The notes beneath the pieces are model-generated. The model saw nothing but the letters and a program-made list of their open reading frames with translations, did not search any database and was not told where the DNA came from. The translations under genes and the position numbers were made by a program. Positions 9,517 through 45,716 of a DNA stretch of 51,437 bases are shown here, one piece after another (the stretch's first letter is position 1; the number at the start of each line of letters is the position of its first letter). The stretch comes from Syntrophomonas sp. DTU019 (lineage in GTDB: Bacteria; Bacillota; Syntrophomonadia; Syntrophomonadales; Syntrophomonadaceae), in NCBI GenBank assembly GCA_001512785.1, contig LFSQ01000029.1:1-51437 (forward strand), in the 5' to 3' direction.

Positions 9517-9644
9517 AACAACACCTCCTCTTGATTGTCAATCACCATTTACCAAAATACTTTTTTAGGGAAAATGGCTGATTATATTAATTGTTGCTGT
9601 CACTATACCATATTTCCAGCAAGTATCGGAAGAACAGTAAGAAT

Positions 9645-11210
9645 TTACGTTTCTCTGGGTGTTGTCAGTGGTGCAGTTTTGCCATCTTTCCCCTTGTGAA
9701 TATTATAATAAACCGACCCGGGGCAGCGGCAGAAATCCAGGCTGCAGCTTAACAGCCAGCAGCATAAAACCACAACCATCAAATCATAGGTGAAACTGAA
9801 CAGGAATAACTGCTTGGCAGTATCGGCCTGACCGTTCCCCATGAGAGGCATGGGAAACTGCAAAAGGCCTATGATAATCACTGCCCAAAACAGCTTTAAA
9901 AGTGACACGATTTCTTTAGACTGCCGCCACTTTTTATAAGCCAGCAGGGATAGCCCCAGTACTGCAGAATAAGCCAGGACCAAAAACTCCAGGTTTCGCG
10001 GCATATACTGTTCCCTTAAAGAAGACCAATAGGTGAAGCGCTCAAACTCGCTCACCGGCTGCTCTAAGTCCTTCTTTTGGTATTTGCCCAGAGTGGTTGA
10101 GGTGGTAAAGGCATGACGGGCCGTGTATTCCATGCCGCTAATAAACCTCTGCGGATGGGTAATATAAAACCAAACCAGATCAAAATTGCTGATTTTGCTG
10201 TAGAATTCCTTTCGGGTGGTCTCGCTGAGGGGCACATATTTGGCATACTCTTCTTCAGGCAAAAAAGCGTGTTTCCCGGCGTCGACCGCCAGGTCGGGGT
10301 TCAAGCCCAGGTCAAGCAGGTCCTGAGCAGGGTTGGGGGAATCCTTCAATATCCCGTAAAACAGCGCATTGTAACGGGTATACTCACTGATTGATTTGTT
10401 GGCATAGGCGTAACTGAGCGGATAAATTATTATGATAAAGCTCAAAACCCCCATTATCCACATCTGATGGGGTTTGAGCAGCCCCCGGTTTTCCCGCCAG
10501 AGATGGATTATCATGACAAGAATCACGGGCAGGGCGGATATAACCTGCAGCTTGGATCCCAGAAACAGAAATGCCGCCGCGAAAATGAGCACAATGGATG
10601 AGAATACCTTATGCCGGGACTTTGTCACCTGGCGATGATAGAGGTACTTTACCCAGGCGGCGCTATACAAGGCCAGGGCGGTTATCATCATGGGTTCGCC
10701 GTACAAGCTGTTGAACCATACCAGATAATTGCCATCCAAAAAAACAAAACAGCTAATGAGGATAAACATACCCAGTTTTAAACGGTCTCTTAGGTTAAGA
10801 GAGGCGAATATCAGCCAGAAGGCATATATGTACAGCACCGCGTAAACAGTGGCCAGGTATAGGGTTTTGAAAGTATCCTGTCCCAGCAGCCGGCAGACAG
10901 TGTTTATCAAGGTGATTACATAAGCGATGCTGGTGGCACTCAAGCGCCTGAAAAGGCTTAATCTGCTGCTGTCGGAAATCTGGTATTCGAACACCGGGTA
11001 ATGCATGAACCGTTCAAATCCGGGGTCATCGATTTGCTCCGCTTTGAGTTCCAGGCCTGAAACATTCATGACGCGATCAAAATCGCCCTGATCAGCCACT
11101 CCGGGTTGAGGAGGCTGATAGAGCACCAGGGCGATGATGAGCACGGCAAGGACTCCCGCTATGACCGGCAGGTAATGTGACAAACGATGTTTTCTCATCT
11201 CATACCACAT
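9645..11210 (-). CDS. polytopic membrane protein, GT-C-like glycan hexosyltransferase (WsfD-like)
   Basis: The 521-aa protein has about 11-12 membrane helices. The large first extracytoplasmic loop begins with the acidic motif ADQGDFDRVM, placed like the catalytic acidic loop of GT-C polyprenyl-phosphate-dependent transferases. I recall the same motif in WsfD-type glycan biosynthesis proteins, so a role in decorating a surface polymer is likely, with the sugar donor and acceptor unknown. It is divergent from gtrA/gtrB, whose products make and flip polyprenyl-phosphate sugars and would supply its donor. The start could be either ATG 11210 or ATG 11198; no ribosome site decides. Confidence 0.6.
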   Translation of the reverse strand: MWYEMRKHRLSHYLPVIAGVLAVLIIALVLYQPPQPGVADQGDFDRVMNVSGLELKAEQIDDPGFERFMHYPVFEYQISDSSRLSLFRRLSATSIAYVITLINTVCRLLGQDTFKTLYLATVYAVLYIYAFWLIFASLNLRDRLKLGMFILISCFVFLDGNYLVWFNSLYGEPMMITALALYSAAWVKYLYHRQVTKSRHKVFSSIVLIFAAAFLFLGSKLQVISALPVILVMIIHLWRENRGLLKPHQMWIMGVLSFIIIIYPLSYAYANKSISEYTRYNALFYGILKDSPNPAQDLLDLGLNPDLAVDAGKHAFLPEEEYAKYVPLSETTRKEFYSKISNFDLVWFYITHPQRFISGMEYTARHAFTTSTTLGKYQKKDLEQPVSEFERFTYWSSLREQYMPRNLEFLVLAYSAVLGLSLLAYKKWRQSKEIVSLLKLFWAVIIIGLLQFPMPLMGNGQADTAKQLFLFSFTYDLMVVVLCCWLLSCSLDFCRCPGSVYYNIHKGKDGKTAPLTTPRET

Positions 11211-32340: not shown

Positions 32341-32523
32341 TTACCGGCCTGTGAAATGCGGCTTTCGTTTTTCCCGGAAAGCTGCCGCGGCTTCTGCTTT
32401 ATCCTCCGATCCCAGGGAGTATATAGACTGGACTTGTTCAAATAGCATTCCCGCCTGCAGACTGGATTCCATGGCACCCGAGCCAAGCCTCAGGTTAATC
32501 AAACCGTAATAAACCTTAGCAGA
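32341..32523 (-). pseudogene. C-terminal fragment of an enoyl-CoA hydratase (crotonase)
   Basis: About 60 codons read AKVYYGLINLRL, then LQAGMLFEQVQSIY, SLGSEDKAEA and AAFREKRKPHFTGR before a stop. The tail (xxSEDKxExxxAFxEKRKPxFxGR) is the classic crotonase C-terminus. The rest of the gene, about 200 residues, is missing, and the fragment begins exactly at the end of hypE, overlapping its last codons in another frame. This marks a recombination junction. The fragment cannot be active. Confidence 0.75.
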
Positions 32524-33526
32524 TGCGGGGTACATGCTCCCCTTCCAGAGTGCTCAGAATGCGTTTGGCCCCAAGTGCGGTCTTGAGCAATACCATGCCA
32601 GGATGATTCGCAACTACTTCTCCAATTATTGTTGCCCCTTGAGTTAAGGGATTGCTGAGCAACTCCCGCATTAAATCGTCTATACCTTCCCGACTGGCAA
32701 AGATGACCATTTTGCCTTCATTGGCCATATAGAGCGGATCCATGCCCAGCATATCACAGGCCCCTTTGACCACTGCTGAAACCGGGATGCGCTGTTCTTC
32801 TACTACTATCCCTAACCCCGCCTGAGTGGCGATCTCGTTGAGAACAGTGGCCAGCCCTCCCCGGGTTGGATCGCGCATGCACTTTATCTGCGCGGGATAC
32901 TTGCTGACCAAAGCACTCAAATGATGCAGAGCCGCGCAGTCGCTCTCTGCCGGGGTAGAAAAAGCCAGGCCTTCGCGTTGGGCCAATATGGCCAGGCCAT
33001 GGTCGCCCACCTGTCCGGTAACGATAACCTGATCCCCCGGTTTGATGCAGCGAGGGTGCAGCGATACTTCCGAATCGATTACACCAATTCCCGTAGTATT
33101 GATGAAAACCTGATCGGCGCTGCCCTTTTCCACCACTTTGGTATCTCCGGTGACCAACTTCACACCGGCTGCTGCAGCGGTTTGAGCCATAGACTTTACG
33201 ATCTGCTCCAGATCCCGGATACTCAGACCTTCTTCAATGATGAAAGCAGCACTGAGATACAAGGGGCGGGCTCCACAGGCCACCAAATCATTCACCGTGC
33301 CGCATACTGCCAGTTTGCCGATATCCCCGCCGGGGAAAAACAATGGGGTGATGACGAAAGAATCGGTGGAGACAGCAATCCGGTTTACCGGCAATTGCAA
33401 CACAGCTCCATCCAGCATGTCATCAAGGTGTGGATTGCTCCAATATTGCTTAAAAATCCTCTCTATCAGGCCTTGGCTCATCAGGCCGCCGCTGCCGTGA
33501 GCGAGAAGAACCCTTTCCTGGTTCAC
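32516..33526 (-). CDS. hypE: hydrogenase maturation carbamoyl dehydratase HypE
   Basis: The 336-aa protein begins VLLAHGSGGLMSQGLI, has the AIR-synthase-like ATP domain (DGAVLQL, STDSFVITPLFFPGG) and ends PRIC, whose terminal Cys takes the carbamoyl group from HypF and turns it into cyanide for the active-site iron. The frame is open further upstream, but GTG 33526 overlaps the hypD stop (GTGA) and gives the family N-terminus. It is the last gene of the hydrogenase operon. Confidence 0.96.
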   Translation of the reverse strand: MNQERVLLAHGSGGLMSQGLIERIFKQYWSNPHLDDMLDGAVLQLPVNRIAVSTDSFVITPLFFPGGDIGKLAVCGTVNDLVACGARPLYLSAAFIIEEGLSIRDLEQIVKSMAQTAAAAGVKLVTGDTKVVEKGSADQVFINTTGIGVIDSEVSLHPRCIKPGDQVIVTGQVGDHGLAILAQREGLAFSTPAESDCAALHHLSALVSKYPAQIKCMRDPTRGGLATVLNEIATQAGLGIVVEEQRIPVSAVVKGACDMLGMDPLYMANEGKMVIFASREGIDDLMRELLSNPLTQGATIIGEVVANHPGMVLLKTALGAKRILSTLEGEHVPRIC

Positions 33527-34611
33527 TTTGATTCTCTTCCTTTCACCGGTATGGTATAGCGATAATGCGCGGCACAGGCCCCTTCCTGCGAGACCATACA
33601 GGGGCCCACCGGGTTCATCGGGCTGCAAACGGTACCGAATAAGGCGCATTGCGCGGGCGATATTTTACCGGTTAAAATAGCCCCGCAGGCACAGCCTTTG
33701 ATGGGTTTCTCTTCAATATCCGGAACGGCAAACCTCCGGCTTGCATCGTAATCGGCATAGCTTTCACGTATAGCCAGGCCGCTCTCAGGAACGGTTCCCA
33801 GGCCGCGCCAATTTACTGCGACAGGCTCGAATACCCGGGCTATTAGGCCTTGTGCGATCGGATTGCCCTCAGGCTTGACCAGGCGCTTGTATTGGATCTC
33901 AGCCCGGGCCTGACCGCTGGCGATCTGCCGCATCAACATGCAGATGCCTTCCAAAATATCCCGCTCATCAAACCCGGTCACCACGCAGGGTTTGTGGTGC
34001 TTGCTGATCAAATCTTCATATGGGGCGCAACCTATGACCAGCGATACATGACCCGGACAGATGAGCCCGTCCACCTCTATTTCCGGGTCGGAGAATATTG
34101 CTTGCAGGGCCGGGGGCACAGTTTTGTGCAGCGACCATACCGAGAAATTGCTCACTCCCAGCCGTTGGGCTTCAATTATAGTATGAGCAATGGTCGGGGC
34201 GGTAGTTTCAAATCCGATGCCCAAGAATACCATTTCCCGGTGCGGATTTTGGCAGGCCAACTGCAGAGCGTCCAGCGGGGAATACACCACCCGTATATCC
34301 GCACCCTGACTGCGGCATTGCTGAAGGGACGACTCGCTTCCCGGAACCCTCATCATATCCCCAAAGGTCAGCAAAGTAATGTCATGATTGCGGGCCAGGT
34401 GAATAACCCTGTCGATATCGCCCTGCGAAGTAACGCAAACCGGGCATCCCGGCCCGGATATCAGCCTTATACCAGGGGGCAGCAGTTCGCGTATGCCGCT
34501 GCGGGCAATAGCCATAGTATGGGTTCCGCAAACCTCCATAAGGGTGGCCGGTTTATCAATACTACTTATCGCCTGCAATAAGCGTTGGTTATATTCCTGG
34601 TCAGTTTTCAT
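33523..34611 (-). CDS. hypD: hydrogenase maturation protein HypD
   Basis: The 362-aa Fe-S protein has MEVCGTHTMAIARSG, GPGCPVCVT, GFETTAPT and the cluster region GCACGAILTGKISPAQC. With HypC it carries the Fe(CN)2CO unit that is inserted into the [NiFe] large subunit. A frame is open to 34674, but GGAGA before ATG 34611 and the family length favour the shorter start, which overlaps hypC by 11 nt. Confidence 0.96.
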   Translation of the reverse strand: MKTDQEYNQRLLQAISSIDKPATLMEVCGTHTMAIARSGIRELLPPGIRLISGPGCPVCVTSQGDIDRVIHLARNHDITLLTFGDMMRVPGSESSLQQCRSQGADIRVVYSPLDALQLACQNPHREMVFLGIGFETTAPTIAHTIIEAQRLGVSNFSVWSLHKTVPPALQAIFSDPEIEVDGLICPGHVSLVIGCAPYEDLISKHHKPCVVTGFDERDILEGICMLMRQIASGQARAEIQYKRLVKPEGNPIAQGLIARVFEPVAVNWRGLGTVPESGLAIRESYADYDASRRFAVPDIEEKPIKGCACGAILTGKISPAQCALFGTVCSPMNPVGPCMVSQEGACAAHYRYTIPVKGRESK

Positions 34612-34834
34612 AAGCTTCTCCAATTTTCTGCAAGGCCAAAAGCCAATCCATTGTCTCCCTGGCTTCACTTTCATCTATGATTTGCATGGCGAAGCCAGCG
34701 TGTATCAAAACATACTGCCCCGGAACAACCTCCGGTGTCATAATTATGCTCACCTCAACCTGATTGCCGTTGATATCAGCGGTTGCCCGATTGGCCTCTA
34801 TGGATACGATCCTGCCCGGTACTCCCAAGCACAT
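34601..34834 (-). CDS. hypC: hydrogenase assembly chaperone HypC
   Basis: The 77-aa protein begins MCLGVPGRIV, with the essential Cys2 after Met removal, and continues with the OB-like DINGNQVEV and YVLIHAGFAM. It binds HypD and the large-subunit precursor. Its ATG shares a base with the hypF stop (TGATG). Confidence 0.97.
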   Translation of the reverse strand: MCLGVPGRIVSIEANRATADINGNQVEVSIIMTPEVVPGQYVLIHAGFAMQIIDESEARETMDWLLALQKIGEAYEN

Positions 34835-37104
34835 CAGTCTGTCACCTCACTCGCAATAGCCGCCTGTCCCAGGGCGATGCCCCCATCTCCGGCAGGAACC
34901 TGACGGTGTACATATACTTTCATATCATTTCGGGTCAATGATTCCACCAAGAGCTTTAATAGTATTTGATTATTGAAAACCCCCCCGCTGAGCACGACTT
35001 GATCTATGCCGCTCTGTTCGGCTACCAGGCGGACAGTCTCGGTAAACAGGGCCGCCAGGCTGTTATGAAAACGGGCTGCAATAGTCGTGGGAGCAACGCC
35101 CGCCTCAAGCTCATGGACAATGCTCTGCCATATAGAATTGACCTCCATTATGAGCCCATCAGGCTGCTGTTTGACCTGAAACGGGTAAACCCCGCACTCA
35201 TCCGGGTTAGCTATGGCTTCCAGTTCCATGGCGGCCTGCCCTTCGTAGCGGTTGATCGGACAGACCCCGAGTATGGCACTGACCGCATCAAAAAGCCTGC
35301 CGCAGGAGGAGGTCATAAGCTGTTCGCCGCGGCAGAGGCGGTTGATGATTATATCAGCTTCCGGCTGGCTCAGATCCGGCAGCCATTTCCGGGCATATTC
35401 CCAAGCCCTTTCCCCCAGGATTTGGTAGAGATAAATAAATGCCATACGATAGGGCTTCTTAGCAGTCAAGTCCCCACCGGGAAAAGGCATATAGGCCAGG
35501 TGAGCCATCCTCTTGAATTCCCGGTAATCACCGATCAATACCTCTGCACCCCATACCGCCCCGTCGGTTCCCCATCCGGTGCCGTCACATATCAGCCCGA
35601 TGGTCTTGCCTGAAAGACCGTTATCAGCCATGGCTGATGCCAAATGGGCATGATGATGCTGCACCGCCAGGCGCGGCAAATGATTATGCTGCATGGCCCA
35701 TCGGGTAGATTGATAGTCGGGATGCATATCGTGTGCTATAACCGCTGGGGTCACCTTGAGCATGTTTTTGAAGCGCTCGATACCTACAGTGAAATTGAGG
35801 TAATTGTTGTAATTGCCCAAATCGCCCCAGTGCTGGCTCAAAAAGGCTTCATTTCCTTTGGTGAGGCAAAAGGTGTTCTTTAAGTCGCCCCCTACGGCCA
35901 ATACCGATTCTTGCCGGCAGTTTCCGGGGAGCCTGATGCCCTGCGGCACGAACCCCCGGGCTCGCCGGATTATATTGGTGCTTATGTCGGTACAGCTCAG
36001 AACCGAATCATCGCAGGGATTAAATATATCCCGGTTGTGCAGCAGAAAATAATCGGCTATGTCGGCCAGCGAATCTAAGGCTTCATGATTATCCGTTATT
36101 ATAGGCTCATCACTGACATTGGCACTGGTCATCACCAGCAGGTCCAAATCATCGTCAAAAAGAAGGTAATGCAGCGGGCTGTAAGGCAGCATCACGCCCA
36201 GGGTATTAAGCCCGGGGTGCAGCAGATCACCCGGGATGTCAGGATGATTCAGGCTTTTCATCACTACAATGGGAGCCTGCCTGGAAAGCAGCCACTGCTC
36301 TTCCGATTTGGAAATCCGGCAGTATTGCCTGGCTGCCTCAAGGTCTCTGGCCATGACGGCAAAGGGCTTGGCGTCACGGCGTTTGCGTTTGCGCAGTAAA
36401 CGGACTGCTTCACGGTTTGAGGCATCGGCTGCCTGGTGAAAAGCCCCCAGGCCCTTTACCGCCACAATGGCCCCCGATTTCAAAACATCGATAACCTGGC
36501 TGTGAACTGGCCTGCCGTGCTTATCTGTCAGCCAGACCCTGGGACCGCAGACCGGACAGGCGTTGGGCTGGGCATGAAAACGCCGGTCGAGCGGATTACC
36601 GTATTCAGCCGCACACTCAGGACACATCGGAAAACCGGCCATGGTCGTTTTGGCCCGGTCATAGGGCACATCCTTTATTATAGTGAAACGCGGTCCGCAA
36701 TTGGTGCAGTTTATGAAAGGATAGCGGTAGCGCCGGTCACTAGGATCAAGGACCTCCCGCCGGCAGTTGTCACATATAGCGATATCCGGGGATATCATTA
36801 CCTCATGGCCTTCCTGCTCGACACTGTCCAAAATCTCGAAATCCGCATAATTCCGTACAGGAAGCTCCTCTACCTGGCAGCTCTTGATTAGGGCCAGGGG
36901 AGGCGGTTGTTCCAGGAGGGTATGAATAAACTCATCCACCTTTGGGGTTAAGCCCTCAACCTCTATGAACACCCCGCTGGAGGAATTCAAGACCCAGCCT
37001 TTAAGTCCCAACTCAACCGCCAGACGGTACACATGCGGCCTGAACCCTACTCCCTGTACAATTCCTTTAATGGTGAAACGTTTACTGCTAATAGTTTGAC
37101 TCAT
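34834..37104 (-). CDS. hypF: carbamoyltransferase HypF
   Basis: The 756-aa protein has all four domains at normal length: acylphosphatase (GVGFRPHVYRLA), two zinc fingers (CDNCRREV...CTNCGPR and CPECAAEY...CPVCGP), the YrdC-like domain, and the Kae1-like carbamoyltransferase domain with HHHAHLASAM and LSGGVFNNQ. It turns carbamoyl phosphate into the thiocarbamate on HypE. It follows the protease gene by 115 bp and is coupled to hypC. Confidence 0.97.
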   Translation of the reverse strand: MSQTISSKRFTIKGIVQGVGFRPHVYRLAVELGLKGWVLNSSSGVFIEVEGLTPKVDEFIHTLLEQPPPLALIKSCQVEELPVRNYADFEILDSVEQEGHEVMISPDIAICDNCRREVLDPSDRRYRYPFINCTNCGPRFTIIKDVPYDRAKTTMAGFPMCPECAAEYGNPLDRRFHAQPNACPVCGPRVWLTDKHGRPVHSQVIDVLKSGAIVAVKGLGAFHQAADASNREAVRLLRKRKRRDAKPFAVMARDLEAARQYCRISKSEEQWLLSRQAPIVVMKSLNHPDIPGDLLHPGLNTLGVMLPYSPLHYLLFDDDLDLLVMTSANVSDEPIITDNHEALDSLADIADYFLLHNRDIFNPCDDSVLSCTDISTNIIRRARGFVPQGIRLPGNCRQESVLAVGGDLKNTFCLTKGNEAFLSQHWGDLGNYNNYLNFTVGIERFKNMLKVTPAVIAHDMHPDYQSTRWAMQHNHLPRLAVQHHHAHLASAMADNGLSGKTIGLICDGTGWGTDGAVWGAEVLIGDYREFKRMAHLAYMPFPGGDLTAKKPYRMAFIYLYQILGERAWEYARKWLPDLSQPEADIIINRLCRGEQLMTSSCGRLFDAVSAILGVCPINRYEGQAAMELEAIANPDECGVYPFQVKQQPDGLIMEVNSIWQSIVHELEAGVAPTTIAARFHNSLAALFTETVRLVAEQSGIDQVVLSGGVFNNQILLKLLVESLTRNDMKVYVHRQVPAGDGGIALGQAAIASEVTD

Positions 37105-37219: not shown

Positions 37220-37687
37220 CTACTCACTGGCTGATAAAATATGACGAATCTCCGCTTCAACCAATTTTAACAAGCGGGGCATTTTTTCGGTTATCACCGG
37301 AGTCAATCCCAGGCCCAGTTCAACCTGGCAGGGTTCAACCCCGAAAACGGTCACCTGCGGGTGATATCCCATCAGGTTCACCACTTTAATGGCCTCGGTA
37401 AAATGCAATTCATGCAATGAGGTAACCGCAGGGCTGTCTTTCAGACCCAATTCCTCCAGAGGGGCCCGGTATATGGTCCCGGGCTCACCTCCGGCATTCA
37501 TTGAGTCTATAACTATGATGTGATCAGCCCTGCAGAATACATCCAGGATTTCGAAACTGGCGACACCGGCGTCCACCAGTTCGACTGCATCGGGCCAGGG
37601 GCGTTGGGCCAACTCCTTGATGGCATAAACGCCCAGGCCGTCATCCTTCATCAATACATTGCCAATTCCTGCAACAATAAGCTTCAA
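37220..37687 (-). CDS. hupD: [NiFe]-hydrogenase maturation endopeptidase (HyaD/HupD family)
   Basis: The 155-aa protease has GIGNVLMKDDGLG at the start, VELVDAGVASFEILD with the Ni-sensing Asp and later TSLHELHF with the conserved His region. It cleaves the large-subunit tail after nickel is inserted. It lies just downstream of the cytochrome b gene (11 bp), as expected for a dedicated protease. Confidence 0.94.
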   Translation of the reverse strand: MKLIVAGIGNVLMKDDGLGVYAIKELAQRPWPDAVELVDAGVASFEILDVFCRADHIIVIDSMNAGGEPGTIYRAPLEELGLKDSPAVTSLHELHFTEAIKVVNLMGYHPQVTVFGVEPCQVELGLGLTPVITEKMPRLLKLVEAEIRHILSASE

Positions 37688-37698
37688 GATAAATCCCC

Positions 37699-38349
37699 TC
37701 AGGCACCCAGACTACGGCTTTTATCACCTGCCATATCGGCATCACTATGGGCTCCATGGGCTCCTGCCGGGAACTTTCCGGTAAACATGGACAGAAGCAC
37801 CGGTATGCCCTCCGATACATCCAGGTAAACATGCACAACCACTGATAATACGAACAACCAGTTGACCACATAGTGAATGATGCGGACAGCCAATAACCCT
37901 CCCATCCATCCGGCCAAAGCCGGGAAGGTATTGGGAGCGTAGAGTACAAAACCGGTAATGATCTGTATCACAGCCATGATGAGCCAGCCGGTATACATCA
38001 TCTTCTGCCCGGGGTTGTACTTGCCGTAATAGGGATGGCTGTCAGCCATGAACAGATAATACTTTATCATGCTGGGGAAATTCTTGGTGTCTTGAATAGG
38101 CCGAAAAACGATGTTATGGGCATCTTTGGCCACTATGGCATAATATACCCTCCCTATCACCCCGAACAATAAGACATAGGCCATGGCAAAATGAAGCATA
38201 CGCGGAGTATCCATGTTCGAGAACAACCACCTGAAGCTGTTGGGTGCATGAATATAGAACCCGGTAATAATCAGCAGGGTAATACTGATCATATTGCTCC
38301 AGTGAAACAGCCGAATAGGAAGGGAGTGGCGTTCTACCATCTTTTTCAT
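37699..38349 (-). CDS. hupC: cytochrome b subunit of membrane-bound [NiFe]-hydrogenase
   Basis: The 216-aa protein has four or five membrane helices with histidines at heme-ligating places (RLFHWSNM in helix 1, RMLHFAMAYVLL in helix 2, RIIHYVVNWLF and VVVHVYLD late). It passes electrons from the small subunit to menaquinone. GGGGGTG stands 5 nt before the ATG. The position after the large-subunit gene is the HyaC/HupC order. Confidence 0.93.
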   Translation of the reverse strand: MKKMVERHSLPIRLFHWSNMISITLLIITGFYIHAPNSFRWLFSNMDTPRMLHFAMAYVLLFGVIGRVYYAIVAKDAHNIVFRPIQDTKNFPSMIKYYLFMADSHPYYGKYNPGQKMMYTGWLIMAVIQIITGFVLYAPNTFPALAGWMGGLLAVRIIHYVVNWLFVLSVVVHVYLDVSEGIPVLLSMFTGKFPAGAHGAHSDADMAGDKSRSLGA

Positions 38350-38360
38350 GACTACACCCC

Positions 38361-39809
38361 CTAATTTACTATAAACTGGCTGATCGTTTTCTTATTGGGA
38401 GTCATAACATGAATGGCACACCCGAAACAGGGGTCCATTGATCTGATTATGCGCACCACTTCGATGGGATTGGCCGGGTCTGCCAGCGGAGCCCCAATGA
38501 TAGCCTGTTCCATCGGTCCGGGTACATTATTGACATCTCTGGGTCCGGCGTTCCAGGTGGTAGGAACAACCGCGTTCAACACCTTGGTGCGGCCATGTTC
38601 GATTTTATGCCAGTGCCCCAGGGCTCCGCGGGAAGCTTCGCACAGGCCCATACCCAAGGCCTCATCAGGCACCTTGTGCGGAGTAGCTACGGGTTCGCCC
38701 GGCTTCAACTGCAAGACCCACTCTTTCATGGCGGCTGCAATGGCTGCGGTCTCCACCGCCCGGGCATAATGGCGCCCCATTACCGAAAAGGCCTTATTGG
38801 CACCCATGGCCACCAGGTCCGGTTGCTTGGCCACCCACTGGCGAGCCAGAGGCCCTACTTCCATGGGTTCTCCGTTGTAGCGCGGGGCTTTCAGCCAGGA
38901 ATAAGCATCCTTCTTATCGGCATCGGGTTCGACTACCGCCACGTCCGGGCTGTTGCCGCCGGTGTCATCCTTGTACCAGGAGTACTTTACTTCTTCAGTT
39001 ATCAAGGCCGGATCCAACTCTTTGAACTGGCCGCGCACATATACCCCGCTGGGGAAGAATTTCTGCTTACTTACATGGTCCCTGCCTTCTTCCAGCGGGA
39101 ACCCACCGTAAGCCAGCATATTCATACAGCCGCGTCCGATATCAAACCAATCCGGGTATGCTTCTGCCACCGCTTTTACGGTAGGAACATACACATTGTT
39201 TATAAAATCAGTCAGTTCTTCCAGTCGCACCAGGAATTCATAAATCTTCTGAGTGTCAGGCAATTCTGTTACCCCACCCGGAACAATGGCCTGCACATGC
39301 GGCATCTTGCCTCCCCAGATAGCCAGCATCTCCTGGGCTTTGCGGCGCATTTCCAGGGCCTTCAGGTAATTGTTTACCGCCTGAGCGTTGATGTCCGCAG
39401 GCAATCTGTAATCCCCGGCATATTGAGGATTTAACGGCATAACCCCTTCCGGGGCCTTCACATAGTCCAGTGCAGCCAAATGGAAGAAATGCAGAATATG
39501 GGATTGGATGTAATTGGAGCCGAAGATCAGATTACGAATGATCCTGCCATTTGGAGGTGGCTCAATACCAAAAGCGTCATCCAGGGCCAGGGCACCGGAG
39601 GTGGCATGAGAAGTGGGACAAACCCCGCAGATGCGCTGCATGATCTGCTGAGCATCCCGCGGATCGCGACCCTGCATTATCAGTTCAAACCCTCTAAAAA
39701 GGGTGCCGCTGGTATGAGCATCGACCACTATGCCGTTCTCCACCTCTACTTCTACTTTGAGATGTCCTTCAATACGAGTTACTGGATCTATTACTATCTT
39801 CTGCGCCAT
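38361..39809 (-). CDS. hupL: [NiFe]-hydrogenase large subunit (uptake type, group 1)
   Basis: The 482-aa subunit has the L1 motif RICGVCPTSHA and the C-terminal nickel motif DPCFGCAIH, followed by a 15-residue tail (VMTPNKKTISQFIVN) that HupD removes. These four cysteines hold the NiFe(CN)2CO centre. At 482 residues it is shorter than proteobacterial HupL, as seen in Firmicute group 1 enzymes. Its ATG overlaps the small-subunit stop (TGATG). Confidence 0.97.
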   Translation of the reverse strand: MAQKIVIDPVTRIEGHLKVEVEVENGIVVDAHTSGTLFRGFELIMQGRDPRDAQQIMQRICGVCPTSHATSGALALDDAFGIEPPPNGRIIRNLIFGSNYIQSHILHFFHLAALDYVKAPEGVMPLNPQYAGDYRLPADINAQAVNNYLKALEMRRKAQEMLAIWGGKMPHVQAIVPGGVTELPDTQKIYEFLVRLEELTDFINNVYVPTVKAVAEAYPDWFDIGRGCMNMLAYGGFPLEEGRDHVSKQKFFPSGVYVRGQFKELDPALITEEVKYSWYKDDTGGNSPDVAVVEPDADKKDAYSWLKAPRYNGEPMEVGPLARQWVAKQPDLVAMGANKAFSVMGRHYARAVETAAIAAAMKEWVLQLKPGEPVATPHKVPDEALGMGLCEASRGALGHWHKIEHGRTKVLNAVVPTTWNAGPRDVNNVPGPMEQAIIGAPLADPANPIEVVRIIRSMDPCFGCAIHVMTPNKKTISQFIVN

Positions 39810-40873
39810 CAGTTGTCACCCTCTTTCTCATCACTGTGCTTTTTGGGACCAATACGGCCAGTGGCGATATTGCCGGCCAAATGCCCGGCAATGCCGACCG
39901 CGGTAGCAGCCCCCAGAACAACACCGATCTGATCAACAGTAGCGGTGATACCTGGCGCTATGGGCATTTCAGGCAAGCGCGTATACATGGGCCAACCAGG
40001 GAATTGCGGCTCGGTGCAGGCCAGGCAGGGTGCGCCTGATTTGATACACCAATTGGTGCCACCGTTCCATAAGCGGGTAGTGGAGTCACAATGGGCGATG
40101 GGGCCTTTGCAGCCTACTTCCAGCAGGCAGCCAGGTTCGCTGAGGTTTTTGGCAAATATGGCATTGTCGAAATACTGCCTTCTGGGGCAATTGTCATGAA
40201 TGATATCCTTAAAGAACATTTTCGGCCTGCCAAAACGGTCCAGTTCAGGTATCTCATTATACAACAGCACGTGTGCAATCGTACCCACCATCCAATCGGG
40301 ATGCGGCGGGCAACCGGGCACATTTATGTGGGGCACATTTTTCACTACCTCGGAAACTGATTTACACTTGGTAGGATTGGGTGGGGTAGCCGGAATTCCG
40401 CCATAGGCCGAACAGGTTCCGAAGTTCAAAATGGCTGCAGCTTTGCCACCTACTTCTTGTACCAGGTCCAAGAAAGTGATATGATGTCCATCTCTTTCCC
40501 CGACCATGCAGAATTTCCCATCTGCACCGGTAGGAACTGCCCCTTCAACTACCAAATAGAATTTACCCTTGTACTCCTCGGCGACCTTAAATATCCCTTC
40601 TTCCATGGCCAAATCCCCTGCAGCCCCGGAAATATTGGGATGATAACGCAGACTGATAACATCCAACAGAATCTTCTTAATATCAGGATGCACGCTGTTC
40701 AGCAAAGACACTGAGCAGCCCGTACAACTGGCCCCTTGCAGCCAGATTACAGGTGGTGCCCCGGCTTCTACTGCCTGGGTGAGCACCGGTGCCAGAAGTG
40801 AGGTCATGGATACAGCCGCAGCACCTCCGGCACAAAGACGTATGAAATCACGTCTGGTCAGCTTGGTAGGCAT
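39809..40873 (-). CDS. hupS: [NiFe]-hydrogenase small subunit with Tat signal
   Basis: The 354-aa precursor has a Tat signal (RRDFIRLCAGG, cleavage near residue 38). Cluster motifs are GASCTGCSVSLL, GTCSAYGGIPAT, VPGCPPHPDW, DNCPRRQYF, EVGCKGPIAHCDS and CIKSGAPCLACTEPQFP, and a C-terminal helix (about 305-325) anchors it outside the membrane. CTGC without extra cysteines points to a standard oxygen-sensitive proximal cluster. With HupL and HupC it should oxidise H2 at the outer face and feed menaquinone, or run backwards during syntrophic growth. Confidence 0.97.
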   Translation of the reverse strand: MPTKLTRRDFIRLCAGGAAAVSMTSLLAPVLTQAVEAGAPPVIWLQGASCTGCSVSLLNSVHPDIKKILLDVISLRYHPNISGAAGDLAMEEGIFKVAEEYKGKFYLVVEGAVPTGADGKFCMVGERDGHHITFLDLVQEVGGKAAAILNFGTCSAYGGIPATPPNPTKCKSVSEVVKNVPHINVPGCPPHPDWMVGTIAHVLLYNEIPELDRFGRPKMFFKDIIHDNCPRRQYFDNAIFAKNLSEPGCLLEVGCKGPIAHCDSTTRLWNGGTNWCIKSGAPCLACTEPQFPGWPMYTRLPEMPIAPGITATVDQIGVVLGAATAVGIAGHLAGNIATGRIGPKKHSDEKEGDN

Positions 40874-40958: not shown

Positions 40959-41618
40959 CTAAATAACTCGCTTTCCCACCTCCTCTACCAACCACTCAGT
41001 CCATTGGGCTAAACCTTCACCAGTACGACCTGACAGCTGAAAAACCCTGATTTGAGGATTTACCAGCTGCAGGTCCCTGTTAAAAGCGTTTAAATCGAAA
41101 TCTGTATATGGCAACAGGTCTATTTTATTGAGCACTACCACCTGGGCCTGTTGAAATACCAGGGGGTATTTTAAAACCTTGTCGTGGCCTTCGGTGGTAC
41201 TCAAAACCACCACTCTGATATCTTCGCCCAGATCAAATTCGGCCGGGCAGACCAGGTTGCCGACATTTTCAATAAACAGCAGTTGAATGGGAAGATGCTC
41301 CAGGCGTGACCAGGCCTTTTCTATCATGCCGGCATCCAAATGGCAGGTGCCTTCGGTATTTATCTGCACCACTTCGACTCCCTTGTTCTCAATGCGCATG
41401 GCATCCTGGTCAGTATACAGATCCCCTTCAATTACCCCTAATTCTATGCGTCCCCGCAAAGCTTCGATGGTTTTTTCCAGAAGGGTGGTCTTGCCTGAAC
41501 CAGGCGAGCTCATCAAATTTATCACCAACAACCCTCTGGCTTTAAAGATGCGGCGGTTTTTGGCGGCCAGCATATCATTGGCCCCTAATAGGTTAGTTTC
41601 CATGCGTATTTGCGCCAT
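40959..41618 (-). CDS. hypB: nickel-inserting GTPase HypB, without His-rich tail
   Basis: The 219-aa GTPase has the P-loop SSPGSGKTT, GDLYTDQDA, the metal-site region TEGTCHLDA and VCPAEFDLGED, and NKID. The N-terminus (MAQIRMETNLLG) has neither the CxxCGC high-affinity nickel site nor a histidine stretch, so Ni storage must come from elsewhere; the neighbouring CooT-His6 fusion is a candidate. GGGGAAGAGA precedes ATG 41618, which overlaps the end of hypA by 26 nt. Confidence 0.95.
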   Translation of the reverse strand: MAQIRMETNLLGANDMLAAKNRRIFKARGLLVINLMSSPGSGKTTLLEKTIEALRGRIELGVIEGDLYTDQDAMRIENKGVEVVQINTEGTCHLDAGMIEKAWSRLEHLPIQLLFIENVGNLVCPAEFDLGEDIRVVVLSTTEGHDKVLKYPLVFQQAQVVVLNKIDLLPYTDFDLNAFNRDLQLVNPQIRVFQLSGRTGEGLAQWTEWLVEEVGKRVI

Positions 41619-41979
41619 TCTCTTCCCCTTTTCCGGAATCCCCTTCGTAATACTCAACGAATAATTCTCGCCCGCTCAGCAAGTGGCTGGCTTTGCTGCC
41701 GCAATTAGGGCAGAGTTGGCCATAGGGCATGTCGGGCAGGTACTTTTCCCCGCATTGACAGCATTGATAAGCAACCTCCCTCTCTTCAATAAGCAGTTCG
41801 GTTCCCTGAAACAGGCCATCCCTGGCCATAGTGTGAAAAGCAAATCTGAGGCTGTGCGGCATGGCCATAGTCAACTTGCCAACAACCAGCTTGATGCGGC
41901 TTATACGGGTGATGTTGTTGTGGGCTGCGCTTTCGCGAACCATATTCATCATTTCTGCTATTAACGACATTTCGTGCAA
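41593..41979 (-). CDS. hypA: hydrogenase nickel incorporation protein HypA
   Basis: The 128-aa protein begins HEMSLIAEMM and has the zinc site CCQCGEKY...CPNCGSKAS. HypA needs Met1-His2 as its nickel site, and only the TTG at 41979 places His second, with AAAAGGGG 9 nt upstream; the ATG at 42003 would add eight residues and ruin the site. It is the first gene of the hydrogenase operon and lies 28 bp behind a leader terminator. Confidence 0.93.
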   Translation of the reverse strand: MHEMSLIAEMMNMVRESAAHNNITRISRIKLVVGKLTMAMPHSLRFAFHTMARDGLFQGTELLIEEREVAYQCCQCGEKYLPDMPYGQLCPNCGSKASHLLSGRELFVEYYEGDSGKGEENGANTHGN

Positions 41980-42294
41980 AATACAGGCCCCTTTTGGTAT
42001 CAATAATTAAAAAATCCGGCTGCGAAGAGAAGCCGGGCATTTGCGCACACAAGCATTAGCAGACATTATAAATCGTATCGCCAACGTCTGCCATACCAGA
42101 ACATCTCCTACTCACAATACGGGAAGGCACAACCGTTTCCAGTTGTACCCCGGCCAGAAAACCATAGCTTGGCGAAGGCCTTAGGTCTACTGGCTTGGAG
42201 GTTATGCAATTATAAATTACAAGGATTTTTAAGTCCTTTTTCTACAATTATCGCTATTGACATATATTCTACCTGCTAAATGATTTTCCTGCAA
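41980..42294 (-). promoter_or_regulatory. hydrogenase operon promoter and riboswitch-like leader (Moco-riboswitch-like)
   Basis: On the minus strand TTGCAG (42289-42294), 17 bp, TAGAAT (42266-42271) starts a leader of about 280 nt. CTCC (42197-42200) can pair with GGAG (42105-42108). Inside are GCCAG/CTGGC closing CCTAAG (42180-42185) and TATGG (42162-42166), the two halves of the 11-nt GAAA receptor, and then a hairpin ACAACTG-GAAA-CGGTTGT (42129-42146). A 9-bp hairpin (42059-42091) and an intrinsic terminator follow. Parts resemble the Moco riboswitch consensus as I remember it (CCTCCxAGCC, CTGG, GCCTYCC). The class call is inference; the tetraloop, receptor and terminator are seen. Confidence 0.65.
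42007..42037 (-). terminator. leader terminator before hypA
   Basis: The stem CCGGCT/AGCCGG is followed on the minus strand by ATTTTTTAATT. It ends 28 bp before the hypA start, where an expression platform would lie. Confidence 0.8.
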
Positions 42295-42514: not shown

Positions 42515-43312
42515 CTATACGCCCTTGACCAGGGTAAAGGTCGTTATTATACCGTCATAAGTGGAGGAAAAAAGGTAATGCCCGCGCGCGGAGAGAAAGA
42601 ATTTCGCCCGACCCCAATCATCGCTTTTCTGCCGGCGTGGATACTCCTGACCGCCGGCGCTGGCATAAGTAGCCTTTATTTCCACACCCGCCAGGGGCTG
42701 CCCGTTTCTCAATAATTGAACCTCATAGTATTCACCGATGCGGGCATGGCTGTATCCACTGGGCACGATTTCCAAAGGCAGGCCGATAGGGTCGATATGA
42801 TGGTGATGGTGATGACCGATTTCGACAAGAATTTTAGCATACAGTTCCGGATCTCCGGGTTGATGGACAATCACTTGTATTAATCCGTCAACTTCCTGTC
42901 CGGGATACAGCCAGTACTGGCCTTTATCGAGAAGCACCTGCAGTTCGCGCCTGCCCGCGCTGTTTATCAAAAAAGCCTGCACATCTTCCAATGAGGCATC
43001 TTGAGGCTGCATGTTATATCCCTTAAACAGCTTGAGTCTTACTTCTTCACCTTCATGAAAATGACCGTGGTCAGTATCCGGTTCCAGCCACAATTCACCC
43101 GGTCTAACCGAGGCTGGTTGAGGAATCTCTTCCACTATGATGCGATGGCGTACCAGTTCCAGCTCACGAAAACGAGCCTTGATGACCTTGCGTTCACCAA
43201 AGATGTTTTCCATGAAAAGGGTGTTATCCTCACCGGGGATAATCCTGTCCACTCTTTCCATCAGCAGTTGCTCCTGTCCATCGCGTAACAGGTAGACATT
43301 GGCTTCACACAT
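42515..43312 (-). CDS. CooT nickel-binding domain fused to DUF4198-like domain with His6 tract
   Basis: Residues 1-62 match CooT (MCEANVYLLRDGQEQLLMERVD, shortened here, then ENIFGERKVIKAR), including the Ni-binding Cys2. Residues about 65-265 form beta-rich domains; the last part (LPLEIVPSGYSHARIGE, VQLLRNGQPLAGVEIKATY) is DUF4198/NikK-like, a fold linked to nickel uptake. Residues 167-172 are six histidines, and HGHFH stands at 82-86. There is no signal peptide, so the protein is cytosolic. GGGGGG 8 nt before ATG 43312 and the need for Cys2 fix the start. It overlaps fmdE by 8 nt. A role as a nickel store or carrier for the hydrogenase is inference. Confidence 0.75.
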   Translation of the reverse strand: MCEANVYLLRDGQEQLLMERVDRIIPGEDNTLFMENIFGERKVIKARFRELELVRHRIIVEEIPQPASVRPGELWLEPDTDHGHFHEGEEVRLKLFKGYNMQPQDASLEDVQAFLINSAGRRELQVLLDKGQYWLYPGQEVDGLIQVIVHQPGDPELYAKILVEIGHHHHHHIDPIGLPLEIVPSGYSHARIGEYYEVQLLRNGQPLAGVEIKATYASAGGQEYPRRQKSDDWGRAKFFLSARGHYLFSSTYDGIITTFTLVKGV

Positions 43313-43919
43313 CGGTATTTCCCCCCTTTTGCACCTCAAAACAGGGCTGGCATAGAACCCTGTCCCCGCTCTTAATGGCCCGCGGTTCCATGACCCCTTC
43401 CCCGCAGCCGGCGCAGGTCAAGGTGTTGTATATATGGGCTCGCGGAGGAAGATCGACCCTTACTTCCTTCCAGTTAAACAGTTCTTCATAGGGGCAGGTC
43501 ATGATCTCTTCAAACAGGTCCTGCAGGGCTTGTTCCAGCTCTTCCTGTTCGGCTTGATTAAGGTCAGTCCGCCCTTTGAGTTCACGATAACGCTGTCCAG
43601 CTGTACCGCCGGATGCGCGTCTTAACTGCGCGATGCGCAGGGCTCGCCCGCTGCTGCGATCAATGACGGTATAAACGGCTTTACCATAGTCTTTGAAAAT
43701 CAGATTGCCTTTGCCGAAAGTACAGCCTAATATGGCCTGCAGGGCATCCACACCGCAGGAATCGGTTTCTACAATTGCTACCAGATCCTCATCCCGATCC
43801 CTTTCCAGGCTGAGCTGATCCATGGCTAACTGCGCTGCTCTTACCCCCATCAGCAAGCCCGGACAAATATGGCCATGAAACTGTATGGCTAACTCCAGCG
43901 GGGACATGTCTTTACACAT
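43305..43919 (-). CDS. fmdE: FmdE-family protein with C-terminal zinc ribbon
   Basis: The 204-aa protein has the FmdE core (FHGHICPGLLMGVRAAQLAM, VETDSCGVDALQAILGCTFGKGNL) and a C-terminal ribbon CAGCGEGVMEPR...CQPC. FmdE was named from formylmethanofuran dehydrogenase operons; its exact role is unknown, though the conserved His and Cys suggest metal or cofactor binding linked to Mo/W enzymes. ATG 43919 overlaps the DUF3842 stop (TAATG) and has AAGGTGG upstream; the longer ATG 43940 is less likely. Confidence 0.9.
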   Translation of the reverse strand: MCKDMSPLELAIQFHGHICPGLLMGVRAAQLAMDQLSLERDRDEDLVAIVETDSCGVDALQAILGCTFGKGNLIFKDYGKAVYTVIDRSSGRALRIAQLRRASGGTAGQRYRELKGRTDLNQAEQEELEQALQDLFEEIMTCPYEELFNWKEVRVDLPPRAHIYNTLTCAGCGEGVMEPRAIKSGDRVLCQPCFEVQKGGNTDV

Positions 43920-44371
43920 TAAGGTAAACCACCTTTCCATTCCTGCTTTATATTCTGACTGTTAAGGCAATGGTTTTTTACTCTGGCCACCAGTTGATCG
44001 ACCTGAATAGGCAGAGGCTCATCCTGGCTGCAGCTGAGTTCAATACCACAGCGGTTCATGGGTATCAGGATCTTGGTAGCTGGAGAAGAGGTTATGGCTT
44101 CGGCCATTCTTGTGGTCAACTCCCCACAATAGCTGTTGGCAGCAATTATGGCCACTGAACCGGCGATCAGGTCCACCCGTGCAGCTGACCAGATTACTGC
44201 ATTTTCCCCACTGGCCCCGTCATTGGCACCAGCCTTTAACATGACCGAAGTAGCCACCGCATTGGTTCCCAACCCGATAATGTATATTTCCTGGCCCAAT
44301 TCCTTGCGCAGTTTTTCGATTATCAGGCGACCGATCCCGCCACCTTGGCCGTCAATTACAGCAATTTTCAA
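43919..44371 (-). CDS. DUF3842 family protein
   Basis: The 150-aa protein begins KIAVIDGQGGGIGRLIIEKL, a nucleotide-binding-like glycine loop, and continues with GLGTNAVATSVMLKAGA, GSVAIIAANSYCGELT and ILIPMNRCGIEL. This is the DUF3842 pattern found in anaerobes, function unknown. GGAGGGGGG before TTG 44371 decides the start; the longer ATG frame has no site. It is the first gene of a tight three-gene operon with fmdE and the CooT fusion, so a role in metal or cofactor supply is likely. Confidence 0.85.
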   Translation of the reverse strand: MKIAVIDGQGGGIGRLIIEKLRKELGQEIYIIGLGTNAVATSVMLKAGANDGASGENAVIWSAARVDLIAGSVAIIAANSYCGELTTRMAEAITSSPATKILIPMNRCGIELSCSQDEPLPIQVDQLVARVKNHCLNSQNIKQEWKGGLP

Positions 44372-44454
44372 GTCGTCCCCCCTCCCCGCCTGGTCTATAT
44401 AATTATATAATTCTACCGATTTCATGTTTTATTATAATAACACATTTGCCGGGG

Positions 44455-44515
44455 AAAAACAGAAACCACAAAAACCGACCTGTTCATCAGGGGTCGACCT
44501 TCGTGGTTCGTGTTA
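44455..44515 (-). terminator. terminator-like hairpin after the 48-aa gene
   Basis: On the minus strand AACCAC...GTGGTT encloses an inner GGTCGACC/GGTCGGTT-type stem and is followed by TCTGTTTTT. It separates the mrp unit from the DUF3842 operon. Confidence 0.55.
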
Positions 44516-44565
44516 ATCTTTAGCAAATTATATAGACAATTATCACACGGTCTATTTGACCGCTG

Positions 44566-44712
44566 CTATTTCACCAGTTCTTCTGCCAGGGCCTTGCTCT
44601 TTTCCGATAGTTTCATGGCCAGGCAAGCCGCGTCTTTGTTCTTGCCCAGGATCAGCGTAGAGGCCAGGTCAGCCAGCAGGTTCTTCAGTTCCAACAGTAG
44701 TTTGGTTGCCAT
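44566..44712 (-). CDS. small helical protein (48 aa), unknown
   Basis: A strong AGGAGGG stands 5 nt before ATG 44712, so the short frame is real although a longer frame runs upstream. The product is one amphipathic helical unit rich in Leu, Lys and Ala (LLLELKNLLADLASTLI, then KLSEKSKALAEELVK). I do not recognise it. It follows mrp on the same strand after 164 bp and precedes a terminator. Confidence 0.6.
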   Translation of the reverse strand: MATKLLLELKNLLADLASTLILGKNKDAACLAMKLSEKSKALAEELVK

Positions 44713-44876
44713 TATTACCCTCCTATTAGTTCTCGCAACCTCCGTATTATAATTCCAAATTATGGATGGCACCCGTAATATGTCAAGATATATATCTAAT
44801 ATAATTATATACATCTGCAGCAGGAATTCGTACCCCTTTTTCCTGGGATTAATCCCCTGCCCCGGCTGATCAACCA

Positions 44877-45716
44877 TCAGGGCAACTGTTCAATAATGCG
44901 GGCAGCGATCTTATCCATTTCCTGTGAGTGGTACTGTTCTATTTTCCCTTCATCCACCAGAGCATTGAAATGCCCATCCCAGGACAGCCCGCCCAGAAAC
45001 TCTATGCCGGTCTCCTGGGCTACTTTAGCTCCCTGGCTTTTGCCAAAAATCTCTATTCTCTCATTGCAATGCGGACACACCGCATGGCTCATGTTCTCTA
45101 TTAGTCCAATAATCGGCAACTGCAGCTTCTGGGCCATTTTAATAGCCTTCTTGACCACCATAAATACCAGATCCTGAGGGGAGGAAACGATGATAATGCC
45201 GTTGACCGGCAGGGACTGCATTACCGTTAAGGGTATATCTCCGGTGCCGGGGGGAAGATCCACGATCAAATAATCCAAATCACGCCAGTCCACTTCTGAC
45301 CAGAACTGTTTAACCGCTCCAGCCAGCATCGGGCCTCTCCATATAACCGGGTCGTCTTCGTTGGGGAGGAAAAAATTGATGGACATCAACTTTATCCCGC
45401 TTTTACTCAGGGGAGGAATAATACCAAAATCCCCTGCTTTTACATTCCCCGTTATGCCGAAGGCCTTGGGTTGGCTGGGTCCGGTGATATCTGCATCCAA
45501 AATCCCCACTTTTTTGCCCTGACGTGCCAGGCTTAAGGCTAAAAGACCGGTCACCGATGATTTTCCCACTCCGCCTTTGCCGCTCATCACAGTGATGACG
45601 TTGCGTATGTTGTTAAGAGACCCTATCAGTGTAGCGGGTTGGCTTTCCACTCCACAGGAAGTAGCTTCCAGATTGCAGCCAGCCGCAGATGGGCAGGTAT
45701 TGCACTTGTCTGACAT
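44877..45716 (-). CDS. mrp: Mrp/ApbC-family Fe-S carrier ATPase
   Basis: The 279-aa P-loop protein has the deviant Walker A SGKGGVGKSSV, DADITGPSQP, the CxxC of the C-terminal half in CPHCNERIE, and an N-terminal Cys-rich lead (CNTCPSAAGC). Such proteins carry [4Fe-4S] clusters to target enzymes. GGAGAATAATC precedes the ATG. Its place next to hydrogenase and FmdE genes fits a supply role for their clusters. Confidence 0.94.
   Translation of the reverse strand: MSDKCNTCPSAAGCNLEATSCGVESQPATLIGSLNNIRNVITVMSGKGGVGKSSVTGLLALSLARQGKKVGILDADITGPSQPKAFGITGNVKAGDFGIIPPLSKSGIKLMSINFFLPNEDDPVIWRGPMLAGAVKQFWSEVDWRDLDYLIVDLPPGTGDIPLTVMQSLPVNGIIIVSSPQDLVFMVVKKAIKMAQKLQLPIIGLIENMSHAVCPHCNERIEIFGKSQGAKVAQETGIEFLGGLSWDGHFNALVDEGKIEQYHSQEMDKIAARIIEQLP

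Follow-up and report, generated by a model that had tools for sequence, protein, structure and literature searches.

The closest described system is the Moco/Tuco riboswitch family RF01055 of Regulski et al. (2008, PMC2408646), with a P1-P2-P4-P5 layout, a GAAA loop and its receptor, a terminator platform and a subclass of RNAs that lack the P3 hairpin. Genes for tungsten-cofactor metabolism were reported in 17 of the 19 organisms carrying P3-less RNAs, an assignment to tungsten that is correlative in the proposing paper, and loss of P3 was judged insufficient by itself to switch the specificity of the E. coli RNA (PMC2408646). The P3-less class later received the name 'Wco', used among other later work in the part of a 2022 survey considered here (PMC9481103). 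Hydrogenases are not mentioned in the main text of PMC2408646 except in one reference title. In the same part of the 2022 survey, Wco riboswitches in tandem are said to precede a "nickel and zinc binding hydrogenase" (PMC9481103), a wording which suggests HypA, and in 2017 a Moco-RNA motif was placed before the Eubacterium limosum hydrogenase complex ELIM_c3126-3132, for which the authors, in the portion of the paper drawn on here, propose balancing with formate dehydrogenase (PMC5651825). A Wco/Moco RNA before a hydrogenase is, on these excerpts, a kind of system that is already known.

The locus described below shares with the E. limosum case a Moco-family RNA before a hydrogenase and differs from it in organism group and gene cluster; the excerpt of that paper gives neither expression platform nor direction (PMC5651825). 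The survey case very probably represents this association with its RNAs in tandem, and occupies one main-text sentence without mechanism in the part considered (PMC9481103), whereas we describe single and tandem forms, their conservation, the switch anatomy and a rationale. Our literature search found no paper joining the Moco RNA riboswitch, syntrophs and hydrogenase. Within the literature searched, supplementary tables (which may list these loci) aside, what is new here is that the association is kept across families and gene orders, how the switch is built and in which direction it is predicted to act, and the tungsten-sparing argument.

The window, i.e. the whole stretch of 51,437 nucleotides analysed from Syntrophomonas sp. 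DTU019, carries on its minus strand (42294-41980) a leader whose length up to hypA is about 275-280 nt. The original prediction, made from the sequence alone, had described a leader of this length headed by a sigma-A-type promoter, with a GAAA tetraloop, a CCTAAG...TATGG receptor and a terminator ahead of hypA, and had likened the order and flanks of these elements to the Moco riboswitch. The covariance search that it called for bears this out: the leader matches RF01055 over the whole model (1-135), scoring 60.9 bits where the gathering threshold is 36 (cmscan, E = 3e-12 over 51 kb), which is far above chance. No other Rfam family was found on the leader above threshold, the sub-threshold matches being rimP, Hrs13 and a snoRNA. 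According to the model, CUCC/GGAG forms P1 and GCCAG/CUGGC forms P2, and both the tetraloop and the receptor fall on model features; like the helices, they recur in relatives, the AAAC of the P4 loop being invariant across 28 aligned aptamers. The P3 hairpin (model positions 62-76) is deleted. The promoter could be located as well (Table 1), although a promoter scan assigned its score of 9/12 to a neighbouring frame; a TTGCAGGA...TAGAAT element is conserved in several relatives, 50-85 nt upstream of the aptamer. The predicted terminator is likewise present, and since its loop is of 9 nt, a generic terminator scan with a loop limit of 8 did not call it. Its U-run and the hypA start codon are 29 nt apart; for the latter TTG 41979 is the best choice, giving a product that begins LHEMSL and matches the usual MHE start. 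Upstream of the leader (42515-45716) are genes for an NUBPL-type ATPase, a DUF3842 protein, FmdE with a zinc ribbon and a CooT-DUF4198 fusion; in several relatives all but the ATPase are again found ahead of the leader, and they are perhaps related to nickel or metal cofactors.

Table 1. Positions of the leader elements and of the hydrogenase operon in the window.
Feature	Positions	Strand	Evidence
Sigma-A-type promoter TTGCAG-17-TAGAAT	42266..42294	-	Sequence; same element in several relatives (TTGCAG 42294-42289, 17-nt spacer, TAGAAT 42271-42266)
Moco/Wco riboswitch aptamer (RF01055), P3-less variant	42089..42212	-	cmscan 60.9 bits, full-length 1-135
11-nt tetraloop receptor CCTAAG...TATGG in P2 bulge	42162..42185	-	RF01055 alignment (CCTAAG starting 42185, TATGG 42166-42162, both at model-expected places)
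GGAAAC, P4 hairpin with GAAA cap	42135..42140	-	RF01055 alignment
GGAGAUG, P1 3' strand; predicted antiterminator partner for terminator 5' arm and loop	42102..42108	-	Folding
Intrinsic terminator CCGGCU-UCUCUUCGC-AGCCGG-A-U6	42009..42036	-	Sequence, folding
hypA, nickel metallochaperone, TTG start	41593..41979	-	PF01155 2.5e-27; N-terminus LHEMSL
hypB	40959..41657	-	TIGR00073 278 bits
[NiFe] hydrogenase small subunit, twin-arginine signal TRRDFIRLC	39809..40873	-	TIGR00391 282 bits; sequence
[NiFe] hydrogenase large subunit	38361..39809	-	NF033181 703.9 bits; PDB 5jsu 4e-143
b-type cytochrome subunit	37699..38349	-	TIGR02125 156 bits
Hydrogenase maturation protease	37220..37687	-	TIGR00072 124 bits
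hypF	34834..37104	-	TIGR00143 796 bits
hypC, 77 aa, MCLGVPG...	34601..34834	-	Open frame and motif alone
hypD	33523..34674	-	TIGR00075 465 bits
hypE	32516..33649	-	TIGR02124 454 bits

The operon runs hypA, hypB, the small and large subunits of a [NiFe] hydrogenase, a b-type cytochrome, a protease, hypF, hypC, hypD and hypE. With its Tat signal, b-type cytochrome and nickel-binding CxxC motifs, the enzyme is predicted to be a membrane-bound, exported [NiFe] hydrogenase. Its best matches are from Syntrophomonas sp. UBA4922 (91%) and UBA4807 (90%); the nearest solved relatives of the large subunit are NiFeSe enzymes, but the window protein has a cysteine (CFGC). In five other genomes (G004, G013, G018, G022 and G032) the large subunit gene contains an in-frame TGA, consistent with selenocysteine. 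The window enzyme requires nickel and iron and no pterin cofactor. In having a pterin-free [NiFe] hydrogenase operon as its target, the window RNA is unlike those of the 2008 study (PMC2408646).

Association of the RNA with hydrogenases was observed in two sets of relatives. RF01055 was present upstream of the hydrogenase in 14 of 19 related genomes of the first set. The second set was a named scan of 79 hydrogenase loci, in which R1, a covariance model made from 28 aptamers, placed the RNA ahead of the hydrogenase at 28; twelve of these coincide with sites that supplied R1 with its sequences and 16 do not (L054, L060, L065, L069, L071, L072, L074, L079, L080, L082, L083, L084, L086, L087, L089 and L114), nine of the 16 being confirmed with Rfam's own RF01055 model and the remaining seven detected by R1 alone. 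When the loci with a large subunit at least 56% identical and an upstream region present are taken together with the window and with L045, L051 (both with the RNA) and L043 (without), which come only from the first set, the RNA precedes the hydrogenase in 31 of 40 informative loci, the nine without it being L064, L067, L068, L073, L078, L090, L091, L103 and L043. Below 56% identity the RNA preceded the genes in none of the scanned loci; at L119, which belongs here, a 43.8-bit match was found, but downstream of the hydrogenase genes. The distance from aptamer to hypA is mostly about 100-200 nt and reaches about 940 nt (L054). Where hypA does not stand in front, as in Pelotomaculum, Syntrophaceticus and relatives (L079, L080, L082, L084, L087 and L089), the RNA lies before the small subunit, which argues that the structural genes and not hypA are its constant partner. 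The regulated unit would then be the whole hydrogenase operon and not maturation alone, because relatives lacking hypA in this position keep the RNA before the structural genes. Aptamer, terminator, operon and conservation can all be read from the sequences themselves.

Tandem aptamer copies were observed at L044/L061, L045, L051, L057, L065 and L087, and L056 has further, partly masked copies. Two RF01055 aptamers lie divergently, back to back, at L054 (3421-3538 and 3776-3894), one of them toward the hydrogenase operon, and L058 has a similar pair. In Pelotomaculum propionicicum MGP (L087, 5370-5783) the hydrogenase leader holds a Wco-type aptamer, a c-di-GMP-I aptamer (RF01051, 62.7 bits) and a second Wco-type aptamer in series. 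Since a stem resembling a terminator shares sequence with the 3' side of the c-di-GMP aptamer, c-di-GMP might be an ON signal in this leader. The pairing of Moco/Wco with c-di-GMP is absent from the logic-gate table of the 2022 survey, as far as the part considered here goes (PMC9481103).

A terminator was found downstream of the aptamer in every readable hyp leader (L037 is masked with N there). The switching analysis covered leaders of the Syntrophomonadaceae, those beyond the family (L079 to L089) being set aside. The terminator 5' arm and loop (typically CCAGCAUUUC) are complementary to GGAGAUGCUG, i.e. the P1 3' strand and the bases that follow, and their mean pairing energy was -14.7 kcal/mol as compared with -8.9 (sd 0.5) for shuffled arms (n=23, the scripted hairpin rules having left uncalled the window terminator and that of one L051 copy, both visible in the sequence). 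Swapping arms between leaders changed this little (-14.2 kcal/mol, permutation p = 0.07), so the pairing is read as conserved complementarity and not as covariation. When folded as nascent RNA that ends short of the terminator 3' arm, 23 of 24 leaders preferred the antiterminator (mean probability >0.5; exception L062); the leaders are related by descent and do not amount to 23 independent cases; the window, uncalled by the same rules, is left out of this set. By a stricter maximum measure, shuffled arms also score high in several leaders. In the window itself, most bases of the loop and adjoining arm pair with the aptamer 3' side at 0.88-0.98 on folding, and the full-length antiterminator and P1-plus-terminator states are equal in energy (-81.7 vs -81.6 kcal/mol), a balance expected of a switch whose state ligand binding could decide. 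The P1-arm duplex of the window alone was no better than shuffled arms (48/200), and only the whole-leader fold favours the antiterminator. Another candidate antiterminator, GGCCGGG of P2/P4 with CCCGGCU of the terminator arm, is perfect by eye and was rejected since it is 12 kcal/mol worse (-69.3 vs -81.7).

The genome of the window organism (2.2 Mb) contains 11 RF01055 matches. Three of them stand in tandem before tupABC, and others precede an ABC operon that includes FmdE and a ModD-like gene, formate dehydrogenase genes accompanied by moeA, genes for surface proteins in which sulphite-oxidase-like domains are weakly matched, and an operon containing an ABC transporter of the FecCD type. 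In the tupABC triplet (L012 4427-4931, contig C28) a terminator-like hairpin follows each of the first two aptamers, and the arrangement resembles the tandem triplet of S. wolfei described in 2008 (PMC2408646). On contig C128 (L013), Wco-type aptamers at 1413-1532 and 9572-9691 stand ahead of SLH- or Ig-domain surface proteins, with weak Oxidored_molyb matches in the first surface protein and in the gene just before the second aptamer, much like S. wolfei cases noted in the same paper (PMC2408646). An aptamer of 68.5 bits on contig C130 (L016 11022-11140) has no clear same-strand gene downstream. Another formate dehydrogenase operon, on contig C47, also has the RNA; downstream of it lies a hairpin with a 5' arm that might base-pair with GGAG, so this RNA may be OFF as well. 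The genome also encodes an FDH-N with a Tat signal, an in-frame TGA and its own cytochrome b, on whose contig the RF01055 search gave no match.

Absence of P3 from the window aptamer, and from the whole alignment of 28, makes the tungsten cofactor the likelier ligand, and the genome has tungstate-specific transport: TupA scores 218 bits (E 1e-64), under a strict curated cut-off of 400, yet it is the sole NCBIfam model matched, and modA gave no match in the genome. We accordingly take the leader to be a probable member of the Wco/Tuco class; the tungstate transporter also suggests that the formate dehydrogenases of this genome use tungsten. That the RNA senses the molybdenum cofactor instead, with the mechanism otherwise unchanged, is in our opinion unlikely: one Rfam family spans both cofactors, and both the correlative assignment and the E. 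coli P3 deletion lend this reading some weight (PMC2408646), but besides the missing P3 and the presence of TupA without a modA match, RNAs of this kind associated with hydrogenases are classed as Wco in the part of the 2022 survey considered (PMC9481103). The original prediction had called Moco control of hydrogenase maturation unexpected, which the short published remarks, seen in excerpt, have partly overtaken (PMC5651825, PMC9481103); a Moco-family RNA it is, with tungsten cofactor as the likelier ligand. Its alternative, a derived aptamer for nickel, Fe-S or another hydrogenase-related signal, is hardly tenable and was dropped: the target genes do concern nickel, but the core is a full-length Moco/Wco match, and the hydrogenase aptamers align, with invariant core positions, with the tupABC and formate dehydrogenase aptamers of the same genome. 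As to direction, the P1 3' strand is the predicted pairing partner of the terminator 5' arm and loop, which points to a ligand-OFF switch; in the predicted folds, terminator and antiterminator exclude each other, the latter occupying a P1 strand. An ON switch, by which ligand would prevent termination and hydrogenase would be made when Wco is plentiful, appears very unlikely. The family does also occur before genes for cofactor-using enzymes (PMC2408646), but an ON switch would need an aptamer sequestering the terminator arm, whereas the terminator lies 45-61 nt past the aptamer match and its arm is a predicted competitor of P1 in all but one of 24 leaders; E. coli moaA, a family member, is repressed by cofactor (PMC2408646).

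We infer ligand, direction and physiological purpose together as follows. With Wco bound, P1 would close, the terminator would form and transcription would end before hypA. When Wco is scarce, the P1 3' strand would pair with the terminator 5' arm and loop, allowing read-through into hypA-hypB-hydrogenase-cytochrome b-protease-hypFCDE. A W-dependent, cytochrome-b-linked formate dehydrogenase could then not be filled, a W-free, Tat-exported, cytochrome-b-linked [NiFe] hydrogenase would be made, and H2 would take the place of formate as the outlet for electrons. For Thermacetogenium phaeum the same exchange as we propose here has been put forward, with electrons leaving menaquinone through either a periplasmic formate dehydrogenase or a [NiFeSe] hydrogenase (PMC6895022). 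Given a ligand-OFF Wco switch and a W-free hydrogenase as alternative exit, low W cofactor would therefore bring in the hydrogenase. We consider it probable that the leader is a Wco-class ligand-OFF attenuator whose likely purpose is tungsten sparing, the W-free hydrogenase replacing the W-dependent formate dehydrogenase. Against a simple swap, the formate dehydrogenase operon on C47 carries the RNA too, possibly as an OFF switch. The lack of an RF01055 match on the FDH-N contig and the nine informative hydrogenase loci without the RNA also weigh against this reading. The switch might instead be part of a general low-tungsten response of transporters, cofactor enzymes and hydrogenase, with no specific exchange of formate for hydrogen. 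The variety of genes behind the 11 aptamers speaks for such a response, which we nevertheless regard as the less probable reading, because inclusion of a pterin-free hydrogenase asks for a logic of substitution and the association of RNA and hydrogenase is kept across families and gene orders.

If the tungsten-sparing reading is true, low Wco would swap a quinol-linked, W-dependent formate dehydrogenase for a quinol-linked, W-free [NiFe] hydrogenase. Through one RNA, the supply of tungsten cofactor would then bear on whether formate or hydrogen is used, the two currencies in which electrons pass between species in methanogenic communities, and this choice would be directly testable by varying tungstate. 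It would also supply a reason for the published, so far unexplained remark on a Wco riboswitch before a hydrogenase. We tentatively suggest, as a conjecture of somewhat less than even weight, that the RNA may be a metal-economy switch of syntrophs, by which tungsten supply would set whether formate or H2 passes to the methanogen, with an additional gate by c-di-GMP, via the interleaved c-di-GMP-I aptamer, in Pelotomaculum propionicicum.
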